From assembly GCA_018432765.1 (NCBI GenBank), contig JAHDSI010000022.1, positions 1-40,494 on the forward strand: 40,494 bases of DNA, read 5' to 3'. The notes under the pieces are model-generated. The model did not search any database. It was not told the DNA's origin and worked only from the letters and a program-made list of their open reading frames with translations. The first letter of the stretch is position 1. The number at the start of each line of letters is the position of its first letter. The stretch is from Methanoregulaceae archaeon (GTDB taxonomy: Archaea > Halobacteriota > Methanomicrobia > Methanomicrobiales > Methanospirillaceae). The position numbers and the translations under genes were made by a program. This document shows positions 10,307 through 16,386 of this stretch, piece by piece.

Positions 10307-10446
10307 AGCAGCAGATACCGTCAGCCCGCAAGAGACCTCTTTTCAGGGTGTTGCCTCACTGGTGAACATCAACCAAGATCTCCTTCTGAAGAGCCTGTGA
10401 ACATTTGAAAATTCCGTATCTGAAATAAAAAATTGGTGTGACACAC

Positions 10447-10974
10447 ATGAAATCAAGAGATATTGCCATTGTAGGCATACTCCTTGCAGTTGGAGCAATC
10501 CTTCGCTATTTCCTGGCCATGCTCCATACACCGCTCACCCCGAACATGGTGATAGCGTTCTACTGTCTTGCGATCATCCTCATCCAGCCGAAGGTCTACG
10601 AGGCGCTCGGGATCGGCATAGTGGCAGGAATTCTCTCGATGCTCATATCGAGCTCGATATTCCCCCCGGCAAACCTGATAAGCGAGCCTATCGGCGCCCT
10701 TGTCTGCTTCGCCATCTATGGAGCCCTGAAGAGCAGGTCCAAAATCGCTCCGACGGCTGCCACATTCCTGACGACGCTTGCCAGCGGATTTTCGTTTGCT
10801 GCGGTCGCCATAGTCTTCGTGGGCGCGACGATTCTCTCCCAGTACGGGGGAGACCTGATGACCTTTGTCCTGGTCTTCGTCCCGATCGTCGTGATAACAG
10901 CCGTCTTTAACGCTGTAATCGTGCAGGTACTCTACTTCCCGGCCAGCAGGGTCCTGATGCGGGGACAGGAATGA
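10447..10974 (+). CDS. ECF transporter substrate-binding (S) component
   Basis: A 175-aa integral membrane protein with five to six helices (IAIVGILLAVGAILRYFL, VIAFYCLAIILIQ, LGIGIVAGILSMLIS, the ALVCFAIYGAL region, TTLASGFSFAAVAIVFVG, VLVFVPIVVITAVFNAVIV). It belongs to the S-component type of energy-coupling-factor importers, which bind a vitamin, metal or small metabolite. The N-terminal LLAVGAILRYFL...TPNMVIAFYC pattern recalls the TrpP-like group, so tryptophan or a related compound is a candidate, held weakly. The ATG at 10447 has GGTG 9 nt upstream; a GTG at 10438 is less likely. It overlaps the ATPase gene (ATGA) and opens the operon. Confidence 0.78.
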   Translation: MKSRDIAIVGILLAVGAILRYFLAMLHTPLTPNMVIAFYCLAIILIQPKVYEALGIGIVAGILSMLISSSIFPPANLISEPIGALVCFAIYGALKSRSKIAPTAATFLTTLASGFSFAAVAIVFVGATILSQYGGDLMTFVLVFVPIVVITAVFNAVIVQVLYFPASRVLMRGQE

Positions 10975-12401
10975 TCACGCTCGAGTCTGTCAGCTATGCA
11001 TATCCGCGAACCGGCAGGGATGCCATATCGGATATCACGCTCTCCCTGAAGAGAGGTGAGTGTGTCCTGGTCTCCGGCCGTTCGGGATCCGGCAAGACGA
11101 CGCTCTGCCTGGCGGCGGCTGGCATTCTCGAGCACGAGTACGGGGGACGAAAATCGGGCAGCGTGGCGGTGAACGGAAAGGATGTCGGTGATTACCGTGA
11201 CCTCTCCGATCTCTCAACCTCGGTAGGGATCCTCTTCGACGACCCCGATTCCCAGCTCATATTCACAACGGTGGAGGAGGAGATCCTCTCCGCCCTTGAA
11301 CGGCGCGGTTTTTCGCCTGAAGAGGTCGAAGAGCGCCTCTCCCGGGTTCTTGCCGTCACCGGGCTCGAAGGGTTGAAGGACCGTCCGCCCCATGCCCTGT
11401 CAGGTGGGCAGAAACAGCGTGTGGTCCTCGCCACGACCCTCGCCCTTGGCACCGATATCCTCATCCTCGACGAGCCGACATCGGAACTTGATGAAAAGGG
11501 AACGGACAGCATCGTCTCCCTCTTAAAGGAACTGAAGGCACAGGGCAAGGCCATACTCCTTGTCGAACAGAAATATCCCCGGCTTGCCGCGGTGGTCGAC
11601 AGGTACGTAATCCTGGAGGACGGCAAGATCCGGACCGAAGGCACGGCCGATCATGTTCTCTCCGACGAGACTGCAAAGAAGACGCTGATACCCGATTTCT
11701 CAGGGATAAGGGGAGAGAATGTCACGGATAGAGGCAGGCCGCCAATCATCCGTACCGAGGGGCTGTCGTTTCGGTACGGAGACGACGAGGCCCTCTCGGG
11801 CATCGACCTGGAGATCGCTCCCGGCGAGTTCGTAGCGATCGTCGGTGAGAACGGTTCGGGAAAGACGACACTCATCAAGCATTTCATAGGCCTTCTCCGC
11901 CCGGAAAAAGGAACGGTACGAGTCGATGGAAAAGATGCCGCAAAGGCTCCCGTCGCAGAGCTCGCACATTCAGTCGGCCTGGTATTCCAGAACCCGGATC
12001 ACATGTTCTTCGCCGACTCGGTCTTTGACGAGGTGGCATTCGGTGTTGACAACTTAAAGATCCCGGACCGTGAGAGAGCCGTAATCGATGCACTCTCCAC
12101 CGTACGCCTCGAGCACCTCCGGGATCTCTATCCCCGCTGGCTCTCCCGCGGTGAACGTCAGCGCCTGGCAATCGGCTGCATACTGGCCATGAAACCGCCA
12201 GTGCTCATCCTTGACGAACCGACCACCGGTCTTGACGGTGAAGAGTCACGGGAGATCATTGAGCTGATAAAACGACTCCAGGGGGACGGGCACACGATCA
12301 TCATGGTCACGCACAGCCGCGAGATCGCGGAGGAATGTGCTGACAGGATTGTTCGCATGGATGCAGGAAAGATCGTATCCGATTCAGCAGCGGGGGCCTG
12401 A
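10971..12401 (+). CDS. ECF transporter fused double ATPase (EcfA1A2)
   Basis: A 476-aa protein with two complete ABC ATPase domains, the energising part of an ECF importer. Domain 1 (about 1-235) has Walker A GRSGSGKTT, signature LSGGQKQR and Walker B ILILDEPTSELD. Domain 2 (about 260-476) has GENGSGKTT, LSRGERQR (a G-to-R variant of LSGGE) and VLILDEPTTGLD. In many organisms EcfA1 and EcfA2 are separate; here they are fused. Both sites look catalytically complete. Its start overlaps the S-component stop by 4 bp, and the T-component follows after 5 bp, giving an S-AA-T operon. Confidence 0.9.
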   Translation: MITLESVSYAYPRTGRDAISDITLSLKRGECVLVSGRSGSGKTTLCLAAAGILEHEYGGRKSGSVAVNGKDVGDYRDLSDLSTSVGILFDDPDSQLIFTTVEEEILSALERRGFSPEEVEERLSRVLAVTGLEGLKDRPPHALSGGQKQRVVLATTLALGTDILILDEPTSELDEKGTDSIVSLLKELKAQGKAILLVEQKYPRLAAVVDRYVILEDGKIRTEGTADHVLSDETAKKTLIPDFSGIRGENVTDRGRPPIIRTEGLSFRYGDDEALSGIDLEIAPGEFVAIVGENGSGKTTLIKHFIGLLRPEKGTVRVDGKDAAKAPVAELAHSVGLVFQNPDHMFFADSVFDEVAFGVDNLKIPDRERAVIDALSTVRLEHLRDLYPRWLSRGERQRLAIGCILAMKPPVLILDEPTTGLDGEESREIIELIKRLQGDGHTIIMVTHSREIAEECADRIVRMDAGKIVSDSAAGA

Positions 12402-12406
12402 CATAC

Positions 12407-13204
12407 ATGGGCGAGATCCTCCAGTACATCCCGGGGAACGGGCTGTTCCACCGCCTCCACCCTGCAACGAAGATCCTCTTCATCATCGTGGTGAGCATGG
12501 CGACGATCCTCACGTCCTCCATACCGCTCCTCGTCGCCTATCTTCTCCTGATCCTCCTGCTGGCACTGTCTGGCCGTCTTTTGAAACCCGTGCTCCAGCA
12601 GATGCTGCTCGTCGGGCTCATGAGTATCGTCCTCTATCTCGTCACGATCCTGACTGTTCCGAGGGGAACCGTGATCGGTTACCTTGTTCCCGGCTTCGTG
12701 CCGTACATCGGGGGAAGCATCCCTGTTACCGTCGAAGCCCTTATCGTCGGGACCGTTCTTACGCTGCGTTTCGCCATACTCATAACCGCCTTCCAGCTCT
12801 TCGTCATCTCGACCCAGCCTCGCGATCTCGTGCATACCATGGAACGTGCACGAATTCCTGCTGATTATACCCTGATGTTCATCATCGCCCTGCGATTCAT
12901 CCCGACACTCCAGATCGAGGGGAAGCGTATCCACGAGGCCCAGCTGGCCCGGGGATACCACCCGGGCGAGGGGTTTATCGGGAGAATAAAGAGTGTCGCG
13001 CCCGTCATGGTCCCCCTGGTCTCCAACTCGATCGGAAGGGCAACCCTGCTTGGCCTGACCATCGACATCCGGGGGTACCGATCGAGAACGCGAACGCGCC
13101 TTCGTGAACGCACGCTCGGGATTGCGGACAGGATAGCAATACCGGTCATGGTCGTCATGGGAATCGCTTTTTCATATGCGTTCTTCTTCACTCATTGGGT
13201 ATAG
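12407..13204 (+). CDS. ecfT: ECF transporter transmembrane (T) component
   Basis: A 265-aa membrane protein of the EcfT/CbiQ type that couples the ATPases to the S component. Membrane helices occur around TKILFIIVVSMATILTSS, LLVAYLLLILLLALSG, MLLVGLMSIVLYLVTILT and ALIVGTVLTLRFAILITAFQLF, plus a final one near IPVMVVMGIAFSYAFFF. The coupling region carries the ARG signature (EAQLARGYHPG) and a second motif, DIRGY, as expected for EcfT. It is the last gene of the S-AA-T operon, so the three genes make a dedicated (group I) ECF importer. Confidence 0.9.
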   Translation: MGEILQYIPGNGLFHRLHPATKILFIIVVSMATILTSSIPLLVAYLLLILLLALSGRLLKPVLQQMLLVGLMSIVLYLVTILTVPRGTVIGYLVPGFVPYIGGSIPVTVEALIVGTVLTLRFAILITAFQLFVISTQPRDLVHTMERARIPADYTLMFIIALRFIPTLQIEGKRIHEAQLARGYHPGEGFIGRIKSVAPVMVPLVSNSIGRATLLGLTIDIRGYRSRTRTRLRERTLGIADRIAIPVMVVMGIAFSYAFFFTHWV

Positions 13205-13766
13205 AAAAGAATCTAATGGATAGAAGTGACACCTTCTTCCCATGCCAACCTGTGCTGAATGTGTCCTCTTTACACCAGGCAGGGGGAATGAGGGTGAATG
13301 CAGGATCAACGGCCCGGTTCCCGCTGACAGGGACGCCGGGCGCTGCCCGTCCAGGACATTTACCGCAAAGCCCGGAAAATAATTGCATGCACATCCCTGG
13401 GCGATAGGGGATTGTAAGAATAGCCCGGGCGTCGGTTCGCTGCATCACGGGGTGGCCGAACCCGGCAGGCAAAAATCGTTTCACCTGGCCCGGGGGCTCG
13501 TGACCAATCCGGATTCCGGACGCCGGGTATCTCCGTAACCGGGATTTTCCGTCTCGATGCAGGAAGATGAAGAAAAATCGGGAGCTGCAGGGGATTCGGT
13601 TGGGTTGTTACCAAGAACGGGGAGGTTTCGCTGTTTTTGTTCCGGTATGTTCCGGCCCTGTGACACGGCGCAGTATAATCCACCATCTACACACGACAGA
13701 GTATAAATCCTCCTTTTGTGAAAGGTACTGTAATCCAACAAACAGGGTATTTCGACGAGGAGAATC
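13205..13766. other. Non-coding stretch before the secreted-protein pair
   Basis: About 560 bp with several short overlapping frames on both strands, none with protein-like composition or a ribosome-binding site that I trust. It contains AGTATAAT (13671-13678) and the stronger promoter at 13700. No tRNA or repeat element is visible. Confidence 0.4.
13700..13706 (+). promoter_or_regulatory. TATA box for the first small secreted protein
   Basis: TATAAAT at 13700-13706 predicts transcription start near 13730. The mRNA would then carry a GAGGAG Shine-Dalgarno (13757-13762) four bases before the ATG at 13767. Confidence 0.5.
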
Positions 13767-14159
13767 ATGAAAAACATTCGCAATGAAACTGTCGCGGCCG
13801 GGGTACTGGCCTTTTTCCTTGTATTTTCTCCACTGGCTGGTGGTGCGGGTAGCATCCTCATCTCGCAGATGTACTCGTATTCGCGCATCGATTCAATGAT
13901 TAACGGACATACACAGGTCAGTTCGGATCGGGTGACTGTGCCCTCGTATCAGGCATTGCAGCCTCCCGGCAACCACATGACAACCTCGGTATCGGATAGG
14001 ATCACGTCTCTGCTGTATAGCGACGTAGCAAATTGGGCTCCTCCAGAAGACAGGGTATACACCATGGATCCGCCCGTTCACCCACGTTCCGGTGATTCAA
14101 GCAGAATGTCCTGGGACGATTACTTTTTTGATCCGCCGGTTTGCGGATGCTGCGGCTAA
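13767..14159 (+). CDS. Small secreted protein with C-terminal Cys cluster (paralogue A)
   Basis: 130 aa. Residues about 1-27 are a signal peptide (VAAGVLAFFLVFSPLAGGAG). The mature part shares with the gene at 14628 the segments SQMYSYSRIDS...NGHT (about 33-48) and SDRITSLLYSDVANWAPPEDRVY (about 75-97), and both end in a cysteine motif: here VCGCCG at the very C-terminus. No membrane helix follows the signal. The family is unknown to me. The C-terminal cysteines could bind metal, form disulfides or attach the protein; none of this is shown. It has its own promoter and a T-run after the stop, so it is probably a single-gene transcript. Confidence 0.7.
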   Translation: MKNIRNETVAAGVLAFFLVFSPLAGGAGSILISQMYSYSRIDSMINGHTQVSSDRVTVPSYQALQPPGNHMTTSVSDRITSLLYSDVANWAPPEDRVYTMDPPVHPRSGDSSRMSWDDYFFDPPVCGCCG

Positions 14160-14169
14160 AATACAAAGA

Positions 14170-14177
14170 TTTTTTTT
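14170..14177 (+). terminator. T-run terminator after paralogue A
   Basis: Eight consecutive T residues (14170-14177) start 11 bp after the stop codon of the 13767 gene, the usual form of an intrinsic archaeal terminator. No stem is needed for this type. Confidence 0.45.
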
Positions 14178-14304
14178 CTCCCTGCAGTTTCGTGTCGCGA
14201 GAGAGACTTGATGTTTTCCCGTCGCAATTCAGTCAAACCACCTGCCGCCTCCCCTACTATCCCACGTTATGATTCCAGGATCATTCCCGCATTCTCAAAA
14301 GGCG

Positions 14305-14577
14305 TCACCGGACTGCCAGGCAACCGCCTCCGGTCTCGAAAGACGGATCATTCAAGGTAATTTCGAAGGCTGCCGATCCGGCATCGCATGTGGGTGTGTG
14401 GAGACTGGCATACCACCACGAGATGTAACCCGGTTCACCAATCTTTTCCATAGTAGCAAAGAGCCGGATAGTTCCCCCATTTCCCCATGATACGTACACC
14501 CCGACACAACCCGGCCCAGAGGTGATTATTACACCCAGTAATTCATCCGTACCAAAGGGTTGGTCAAAAGTGAACAC
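14305..14577 (-). pseudogene. 90-codon frame, probably the remnant of a beta-rich protein
   Basis: The frame starts at GTG (14577) with no ribosome-binding site and a stop just upstream, and runs to TGA at 14305. The product (FGTDELLGVIITSGPGCVGVYVSWGNG..., IRLFATMEKIGEPGYISWWYASL, TCDAGSAAFEITLNDPS) is clearly protein-like, with alternating beta-strand pattern. A degraded copy of its middle part lies at 7549-7655. It has no signal peptide and looks like the 3' portion of a longer gene. It sits antisense between the two secreted paralogues. It could also be a short live gene; the lack of a proper start argues against that. Confidence 0.5.
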
Positions 14578-14614
14578 AAAAAGACTTTATCCAATATTGA
14601 CCGATACATCGACA

Positions 14615-14621
14615 AAGGAGG
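14615..14621 (+). promoter_or_regulatory. Strong Shine-Dalgarno of paralogue B
   Basis: AAGGAGG at 14615-14621, six bases before the ATG at 14628, fixes that start. A weak TATA-like CTTTATCC at 14585-14592 could serve as its promoter. Confidence 0.5.
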
Positions 14622-14627
14622 ATCAAT

Positions 14628-15029
14628 ATGAAATTGCGAATTATTCCAATAGTTGCAGGCTTACTGGCCCTTGCCCTCGTATGCTCCCCTGCCGCAGCGG
14701 CAGGGACCACCGGCGTGCTCTCGCAGCTCGCTTCCCATTCCCGGATCCACTCGTTCTTCTCAGGCTACACCCCCGGAACCGGTATCACTCCGGATATTCC
14801 GGCAGTACCCGTGCCCAACCCGCCATCGCAGACCCGGATATCCGCCTCGGAACGCATAGCCTCGCTCCTCGACAGCGATATTGGCAACTGGCAACCGCCG
14901 GCAGGGAGGGTCTACGATCTGCCTGAGCATAACGTGACTGAAAGACCCGAATATACCCCCCGTCCCATACCTGTCTTTGTACGGGCGTGCCCGAACTGCG
15001 GGCAGGGCCCAGGAACCATCTTCTCCTGA
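14628..15029 (+). CDS. Small secreted protein with C-terminal CxxC (paralogue B)
   Basis: 133 aa, paralogue of the protein at 13767. It has a signal peptide (VAGLLALALVCSPAAAAG, residues about 8-25), then VLSQLASHSRIHSFFSGYT, a proline-rich linker (IPAVPVPNPPSQT), SERIASLLDSDIGNWQPPAGRVY, and near the C-terminus CPNC followed by GQGPGTIFS. The shared blocks (SQ..S.SRI.S, RI.SLL.SD..NW.PP..RVY) and the terminal cysteines define the family; linkers differ greatly. Secretion is well supported, function unknown. The two genes probably arose by local duplication, with a relic now lying between them. Confidence 0.72.
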   Translation: MKLRIIPIVAGLLALALVCSPAAAAGTTGVLSQLASHSRIHSFFSGYTPGTGITPDIPAVPVPNPPSQTRISASERIASLLDSDIGNWQPPAGRVYDLPEHNVTERPEYTPRPIPVFVRACPNCGQGPGTIFS

Positions 15030-15044
15030 TATTCCCCAATTTTT

Positions 15045-15067
15045 GATAAAAATCACCGGTTTTTATC
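15045..15067. terminator. AT-rich inverted repeat, bidirectional terminator
   Basis: GATAAAAA (15045-15052) and TTTTTATC (15060-15067) form a perfect 8-bp stem with a 7-nt loop. It lies between the convergent ends of paralogue B (15029) and the methyltransferase gene (stop 15063-15065, inside the repeat). T-runs occur on both strands, so it can end transcription in both directions. Confidence 0.5.
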
Positions 15068-15620
15068 CACCGGTTTTCAGGCTGCACTTCAGCACGACGA
15101 GATCCTCATCATATACGCGTTCTTTTTGAGATATGTCAACCTGGAATCCCTGCTTTTGGAAGAGAGACATCACCTCTTCGCATCCCGTGACCGACGAGAC
15201 GAGGATGAGCACCCTGCCGCCGGGGGAGAGATGGCCTGGCACCTCTTCTGCAAACCGCCGGATAACCGACCTGCCGTCAGGCCCACCGTCAAGGGCATAC
15301 TCGAGCCAGTCATCTATCCGTTCGTCCGGTCCTGTGGGCAGGTACGGCGGATTGAAGACAACCAGGTCAAAGAGACCCCTGATACCCATGAAGAGGTCTG
15401 CCCTGACCACGTCCAGGCCTTCCAATCTCGCGGCTTTCACCGCATGAGGATTGATATCGGTCGCAAGCACCCTGATGCCTGACTCCTGCAGGGATCGCGA
15501 TATGTACCCGCTCCCTGTCCCGATCTCGAGCACGAAGTCGCTCTCACAGGCCTCGGAGATCGCTGCCCGGGCAAGGAGGCAGGTATCCTCACGCGGGGGA
15601 TATACCTGGTCAGGATTCAT
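15063..15620 (-). CDS. HemK/Mtq2-like class I methyltransferase
   Basis: A 185-aa SAM-dependent methyltransferase. It carries the SAM-binding LEIGTGSGYIS (motif I), ATDINPHAV (motif II) and the NPPYLP motif (VVFNPPYLP) typical of enzymes methylating glutamine or adenine amino groups. Size and layout match the archaeal/eukaryotic HemK2/Mtq2 group, which methylates the GGQ glutamine of release factor aRF1; that substrate is inferred. The first in-frame codon is TTG (15626), so I take the ATG at 15620. Its start overlaps the end of ksgA by 11 bp, making it the last gene of the long minus-strand informational block. Confidence 0.85.
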   Translation of the reverse strand: MNPDQVYPPREDTCLLARAAISEACESDFVLEIGTGSGYISRSLQESGIRVLATDINPHAVKAARLEGLDVVRADLFMGIRGLFDLVVFNPPYLPTGPDERIDDWLEYALDGGPDGRSVIRRFAEEVPGHLSPGGRVLILVSSVTGCEEVMSLFQKQGFQVDISQKERVYDEDLVVLKCSLKTGG

Positions 15621-16386
15621 CCGCAATCACGTTTGTAATGGTGGCAAAATCTTCCAGGTACAGTTCCTCGGGCCGCACGGCAAGAATCTCGTCGGGAAGC
15701 TCCCGGAGGAGCGTCCCGATGTCGGGCTTCGTGAGAATCCCCCCGGCACTCCTGATACAGTTCCTAACCGTCTTTCGCCTGTGGGCAAAGAGCGCCCGCA
15801 CGACGTCTGCATAGAGTGCCCTGTCACTGATGGGAAAGATGGGCCCTCTCGGTATGATCTTCACCACAGTGGACTTCACCTGCGGACGCGGCGAGAAACA
15901 GTGCGGGGGGAGGTCGAAGACAGGCTCGACACAGCAGTAGGTCTGCACCATGACCGAGAGCCTGCCGCATTCAGGGGTCCCTGTGGGGGCAACCATCCGC
16001 TGGGCAAATTCCCGCTGGTACATCAGTACTGCCACATCAAAGCCGATATCAAGCAACCTGAAGGTGATCTTTGATGAGGCAGAATAGGGCAGGTTCGAGA
16101 CGACGATATCAAATGGCGGCAACGGGCATTTCGTCGCGTTTCCATGGGTGAGCTGGAAGCGGCCGGCGGCGATATCATCTGAAAAAAGGACTTTTAGATC
16201 TTCCACAAGTTCCGCGTCGACCTCAACCGCACGTACTCGCGCACCCCTCTCGAGAAGTGCCCGAGTCAGGGCACCTTTGCCCGGCCCTATCTCCAGCACA
16301 TCGCGATCGCGGATATCCACGACATCCGCAATCCGATTTATCGCACGGGGATCGACCAGGAAGTGCTGATCTCTCGGTGCTTTCAT
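15610..16386 (-). CDS. ksgA: 16S rRNA dimethyladenosine transferase (KsgA/Dim1)
   Basis: 258 aa. It dimethylates two adjacent adenosines in the terminal hairpin of 16S rRNA late in small-subunit assembly. Visible features are DQHFLVDPRAINRI at the N-terminus, LEIGPGKGALT (SAM motif I), AVEVDAELV (motif II), VVSNLPYSASSKI (motif IV NLPY), FAQRM and the C-terminal helical domain with FSPRPQVKSTVVKI. Length is normal for archaeal Dim1. The start overlaps the DUF655 stop as ATGA. Confidence 0.95.
   Translation of the reverse strand: MKAPRDQHFLVDPRAINRIADVVDIRDRDVLEIGPGKGALTRALLERGARVRAVEVDAELVEDLKVLFSDDIAAGRFQLTHGNATKCPLPPFDIVVSNLPYSASSKITFRLLDIGFDVAVLMYQREFAQRMVAPTGTPECGRLSVMVQTYCCVEPVFDLPPHCFSPRPQVKSTVVKIIPRGPIFPISDRALYADVVRALFAHRRKTVRNCIRSAGGILTKPDIGTLLRELPDEILAVRPEELYLEDFATITNVIADES

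Follow-up and report, generated by a model that had tools for sequence, protein, structure and literature searches.

Small exported proteins with cysteine tails form a fast-evolving, lineage-restricted family in Methanomicrobiales

Metallothioneins (bacterial and eukaryotic) carry clustered CxC/CxCC motifs, and what they have in common with the two small proteins described here, A and B, and with their relatives is a short chain, cysteines clustered in this CxC/CxCC manner and the lack of a stable fold of their own. Metallothioneins, however, are found in the cytosol and are rich in cysteine along their whole length, whereas the A/B family has its cysteine in the tail, at the C-terminal end of a chain that is exported; clustered CxC/CxxC/CxCC cysteines are found in 17 of 29 family tails (those with two or more cysteines), and none of the 12 A/B-branch members matched a metallothionein family among its Pfam/NCBIfam hits. 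Another likeness is with the CTERM sorting domains (e.g., CGP-CTERM), which are also short conserved C-terminal motifs on exported proteins, some of them with cysteine. In contrast to these, the A/B family has no transmembrane segment by the tail and no NCBIfam match, and its tail does not occur on unrelated proteins: the transmembrane segment followed by a basic tail is absent (mature hydropathy maximum <=0.72 in the 12 A/B-branch members), and a search of 108 genomes gave nine family places at E <= 3.9e-4, the next one (E 0.0067) having an internal stop. There is, in addition, a likeness of neighbourhood, since arsEFG/ArsP genes adjoin one branch of the family in three genomes of genus g2, with a truncated paralogue behind arsG in a fourth, whereas A and B themselves lie elsewhere in their genome than the ars genes. 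We know of no tail protein of this kind described as an ars component.

The A/B pair and its genomic slot

The window, i.e., the whole stretch of DNA analysed, comprises 40,494 nucleotides of a Methanoregulaceae archaeon with a Methanolinea-like genome (contig JAHDSI010000022.1 of assembly GCA_018432765.1). A first-pass annotation had proposed in it two small secreted paralogues with shared sequence blocks, a terminal cysteine motif and separate expression signals, and the observation holds: the coordinates match (Table 1), and BLASTP aligns A and B with 38 of 98 residues identical (39%; 68.2 bits, E 1e-20 being the value for a single comparison). The quoted blocks are present in both proteins, the one as SQMYSYSRIDS in A and SQLASHSRIHS in B, the other as RITSLLYSDVANWAPPEDRVY and RIASLLDSDIGNWQPPAGRVY, respectively. 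Export is predicted from a hydrophobic segment at each N-terminus (maximum Kyte-Doolittle 1.99 in A and 2.33 in B), the mature parts having no hydrophobic stretch (maximum 0.15 and 0.61), and the mature parts have cysteine only within 20 residues of the C-terminus (three in A, as CGCC; two in B, as CPNC). The terminal cysteine motif was rightly noticed in both, but the tails differ in kind: according to the alignments, the A type consists of W-D/N-x-x-F and then CGCC/CGCGGC at the extreme C-terminus, whereas the tail of B has no W motif and its CPNC stands 10-13 residues before the end. Each gene has, as had been suggested, its own Shine-Dalgarno-like element and a putative promoter, and elements of both kinds (TATA-like and Shine-Dalgarno-like) are again found in front of the orthologues in Methanolinea, a member of Methanoregulaceae (Methanomicrobiales), in whose records near copies of B are 92% (UBA477) and 89% (SDB) identical.

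Table 1. Features of the slot in the window. The TATA-like elements are putative and based on sequence only; the positions of the W-D-D-Y-F segment and of both tail motifs were counted on the sequence.
Feature	Position	Strand	Remarks
ECF-type transporter	10438..13204	+	slot border; Pfam PF17099, PF00005, PF02361
TrpP-like S component	10438-10974	+	PF17099, E 2.6e-11
Double ABC ATPase	10971-12401	+	PF00005
CbiQ-type T component	12407-13204	+	PF02361
Cys4 ORF	13242..13382	+	46 aa, four cysteines; upstream neighbour marking the slot
TATA-like element 5' of A	13702..13709	+	TATAAATC
Shine-Dalgarno-like element of A	13757..13762	+	GAGGAG
ORF A	13767..14159	+	130 aa, export-type N-terminus, tail CGCCG
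W-D-D-Y-F segment	14112..14126	+	A-type tail module; alignments
Tail CGCCG of A	14142..14156	+	
TATA-like element 5' of B	14586..14592	+	TTTATCC
Shine-Dalgarno-like element of B	14614..14621	+	AAAGGAGG
ORF B	14628..15029	+	133 aa, export-type N-terminus, tail ACPNCGQGPGTIFS
Tail CPNC of B	14988..14999	+	
hemK-like methyltransferase	15063-15626	-	other slot border; methyltransferase domains, name by sequence reading
ksgA-like gene	15610-16386	-	other slot border; name by sequence reading only

The gene order in the window is ECF transporter (S component, ATPase, T component), Cys4, A, B and, on the opposite strand, hemK/ksgA. Since the S component is TrpP-like, the CbiQ/ABC genes next to it are unlikely to form a cobalt system. 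Cys4 (pattern MPTCxxC...GxCxINGPVPADRDxxRCPSRTF) lies directly upstream of the family in genera g1, g5, g7 and g10 wherever the contig reaches; it has no match in Pfam or NCBIfam above cut-off (HIPIP, E 0.21), and possibly it is a metal or Fe-S microprotein that has escaped annotation. It is highly conserved and was matched in 105 of the 232 Methanomicrobiales genomes, in varied contexts, and in seven of them (G231, G167, G229, G023, G175, G089 and G029; G228 is less clear) no recognised tail protein follows it. These stand-alone copies rule out Cys4 as an obligatory partner of the tail proteins, and it is better seen as a marker of the slot that is not bound to the family. No peptide-modifying enzyme (radical-SAM, YcaO or others) was recognised among the slot-flanking ORFs when these were read by eye, on which ground the idea of a RiPP was set aside. 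The conserved slot, its Cys4 neighbour, and the second branch and arsenic-gene association treated below had been missed by the first-pass annotation.

Family membership and a second branch in genus g2

Profile searches delimit the A/B family to 12 sequences in nine of the 232 Methanomicrobiales genomes, distributed over four genera (g1, g5, g7 and g10). At E <= 0.01, 17 genomes were listed and nine kept, since in the other eight the match was either interrupted by stops or limited to a short N-terminal part of a long ORF; at E <= 0.001, 11 were listed and nine kept, with G004 dropped (a 769-aa frame at a contig start) and G169 kept apart as a borderline case. The latter (L174, 1501-1812, forward strand) has a 103-aa exported Ser-rich ORF ending in RWKDCGPAY that matches the family profile weakly (E 1.5e-4). 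The two copies of G230 stand on two similar contigs and may correspond to strains in one bin. Homology does not depend on the signal peptide: with this part removed, leave-group-out searches over six groups recover every member at E 2e-6 to 2e-14, and none of 2400 shuffles reaches the member scores. The dN/dS values are 0.20-0.36 for B against its close orthologues, 0.24 for the pair G035-G129, 0.29 for G073-G230 and 0.54 for A (on 35 differing codon positions); B and the relatives are clearly under purifying selection, A less strongly so.

The homologue search proposed at the outset thus found relatives and matched no characterised family, and the statement that the design belongs to no described family is borne out by the library searches. 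No family match was obtained in Pfam-A or NCBIfam for A, B or the 12 A/B-branch members scanned (the best hits, at chance level and in one member each, were DUF765 at E 0.021 and S4 at E 0.12), and a 12-member profile gave only three weak matches in the PDB (best E 0.078), none of them convincing. As judged by titles and abstract starts, none of the papers searched describes such a protein. A phage or plasmid origin was rejected after searches without a match, of phages and plasmids with A (tblastn) and of viral contigs with B. The structure prediction that had also been proposed gives a chain without a fold: from a shallow alignment of 12 rows, AlphaFold returned a pLDDT of 49.9 and a pTM of 0.16, which predicts disorder, as may be expected for a Ser/Pro-rich chain. 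A and B belong to a small new family that evolves fast and is restricted to a lineage; its members, which have no described function, carry a short cysteine tail on an exported chain that is predicted to be disordered and is otherwise free of cysteine.

In genus g2 the slot holds small exported ORFs missed by the A/B profile. G041, G137 and G177 have two g2 members in tandem, the same design as A and B, within the shared slot (ECF T component, Cys4, member, hemK/ksgA), bordered by hemK in G041 and G137 and by ksgA in G177; G208 and G146 have a single member after Cys4, with the hemK/ksgA border out of contig reach or distant. The slot is closed in G175, G089 and G029, where a convergent hemK starts 583-606 bases past Cys4 and leaves no room beyond hemK itself. 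The g2 searches gave 23 places at E <= 7.3e-6 in nine of the 13 g2 genomes, comprising the slot and other loci (two stops lie inside the G146:C51 match); the profile search listed 36 of the 232 genomes at E <= 0.01, of which nine were kept, all from genus g2. The tails range from none (KWSSLFGT, GGWLW) to GGCGV, WTPYC, FGCGCGC, CPGGCCGCCC and CAGCNCCGCCGCC. When the A/B and g2 profiles were compared, hhalign gave 97% in the tail (17 columns), 78% with the mature chains and 0.2% with tail-stripped bodies. Against the g2 profile, every one of the 12 A/B members outscores no fewer than 285 of 300 of its own shuffles; the reverse search is weak for most. Mainly from tail and slot, the g2 branch is likely to be the same family in a more divergent form.

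Cysteine tails, arsenic genes and possible functions

Tails were counted in 29 sequences, including 17 of the 23 from g2. In 28 of them, no cysteine of the mature chain lies outside its last 20 residues; the remaining sequence has its other cysteine in an extension at the N-terminus that had not been trimmed. Of the tails, 14 have three to eight clustered cysteines with CxC/CxCC-type spacing, three more have CPNC/CPSC and seven have a single cysteine (G035, G129, G177 and four WTP[YS]C paralogues), i.e., 24 of 29 tails have cysteine; the five relatives without any show that the cysteine tail can be lost. Six-cysteine members outside the slot were found in four g2 genomes, and in three of these (G005, G105 and G163) arsenic/thiol genes lie within a few kb. 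In G163 both ArsF and ArsG exceed the NCBIfam cut-offs, and a further protein matches thioredoxin and DsbD_TM weakly; in G105 an ArsE-type thioredoxin over cut-off occurs together with ArsP_1, a DGC protein and a pair of arsF and arsG; and G005 has an LMWPc arsenate-reductase-like gene together with ArsP-like and DGC-like genes, the last two named by similarity to copies tested. No ars gene was recognised near the six-cysteine member of G029. Furthermore, arsG is followed by a one-cysteine paralogue in G105 and G163 and by a truncated paralogue in G146. ArsE, ArsF, ArsG and ArsP are named as organoarsenical resistance or efflux proteins (PMC9144182). In the window, no metal or arsenic gene adjoins A or B, and on the arsF/arsG contig of the same genome there is no family member among the ORFs of >=70 aa read there.

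The explanation tentatively preferred, at less than an even chance, is that A and B are secreted disordered stalks whose C-terminal thiol patch binds soft metal(loid)s. The signal peptide would export the protein and then be removed, leaving a cysteine-free chain of ~100 residues with no stable fold that would end, at the extreme C-terminus, in a compact thiol patch (CGCC, CGCGGC, CPNC or, in one branch, CPGGCCGCCC), usually preceded by an aromatic W-x-x-x-F segment; as the chain is predicted to be disordered, the tail would be its one ordered chemistry. Two or three neighbouring thiolates could then bind soft metal or metalloid ions, e.g., trivalent arsenicals, outside the cytoplasm, presumably at the cell surface and in an anoxic habitat. 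The 14 tails with three to eight clustered cysteines suggest such thiolate binding, and this is strengthened by the arsenic/thiol genes near three of the four six-cysteine members outside the slot. Against it stand the seven tails with one cysteine and the five with none, the absence of ars neighbours from A and B and from the six-cysteine member of G029 (none recognised), and the fact that the arsenic-linked branch is tied to A/B mainly by tail and slot. A more ambitious version, in which rapidly turning-over exported disordered proteins of the Methanoregulaceae slot, with a thiol patch of zero to eight cysteines, form an extracellular soft-metal(loid) buffer that one genus has wired to arsEFG/ArsP, is unlikely.

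Metal binding, linking of proteins and anchoring had all been named beforehand as possible roles of the tails; the multi-cysteine tails and the arsenic-gene neighbours favour soft-metal(loid) binding, while the one-cysteine members fit a thiol link better. Such a link would join the tail cysteine covalently, by a disulfide or otherwise, to a partner in the envelope or to a second copy of the protein, anchoring or cross-linking the stalk at the cell surface, for which one cysteine is enough and further ones are optional. The lone cysteine kept in 7 of the 29 tails (including all four WTP[YS]C paralogues), its constant position close to the C-terminus, the disordered chain predicted by AlphaFold, the lack of any transmembrane or lipid anchor otherwise, and the DsbD-like and thioredoxin-like genes adjoining one branch all agree with this, but six to eight clustered cysteines are left unexplained, and the Cys-less members count against it as they do against metal binding. 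Weighing these one- and zero-cysteine members together with the clustered tails and the ars neighbours, metal(loid) binding is held as a tentative reading and the thiol anchor as a possible but doubtful one. A purely incidental presence of the cysteines, with a drifting tail and a disordered chain exported for some other job (e.g., envelope or substrate interaction), is improbable: tail sequence and cysteine number do vary widely, 5 of the 29 sequences lack cysteine and occupancy of the slot is patchy, but a tail cysteine in 24 of 29 and practically none elsewhere in the mature chain is not what drift would give.

Much less probable is a C-terminal sorting or processing signal, i.e., a tail cut or modified by an envelope enzyme as with CTERM signals. 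The A-type branch does conserve where the tail stands and how its W-x-x-x-F is spaced; however, no hydrophobic segment lies beside the tail, and sorting signals usually occur on many proteins per genome. A shared signal was rejected because the tail profile finds only the A/B family in 108 genomes at E below 0.005; likewise, among the in-frame CGCGGC-pattern ORFs read (a check covering newly fetched loci, in which some pattern places gave no ORF), only the family member of G101 is exported and ends in CGCGGC. Chance ORFs or decaying copies are the least credible explanation of all: presence is patchy, the G146:C51 match contains two stops and the dN/dS of A is only moderately low (0.54), but homologues with intact frames exist in several genera, other close pairs have dN/dS of 0.20-0.37, and no shuffle scores as high as the members do in the leave-group-out searches.

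Should the tails bind arsenicals or other soft metals extracellularly, they would constitute a surface thiol defence of methanogens made of disordered proteins, for which no description was found in the papers searched; if they are thiol anchors, they would be a new way of holding proteins on the archaeal envelope. Natural variants for testing either idea are at hand in the slot, in the series of tails and in the relatives without cysteine.

Two further observations concern the arsenic genes. Beside the one-cysteine paralogue of G105, the two parts of the arsG-like gene lie in different frames (L224, 7865-8586, reverse strand), be it by a true frameshift or by an assembly error. G156 has a second ArsF-like ORF (L261, 2371-3644, forward strand) by an arsG-like gene, and the same locus includes a small exported cysteine-rich ORF with repeated GDTCYN and CCQG motifs, which by eye is unrelated to the family.
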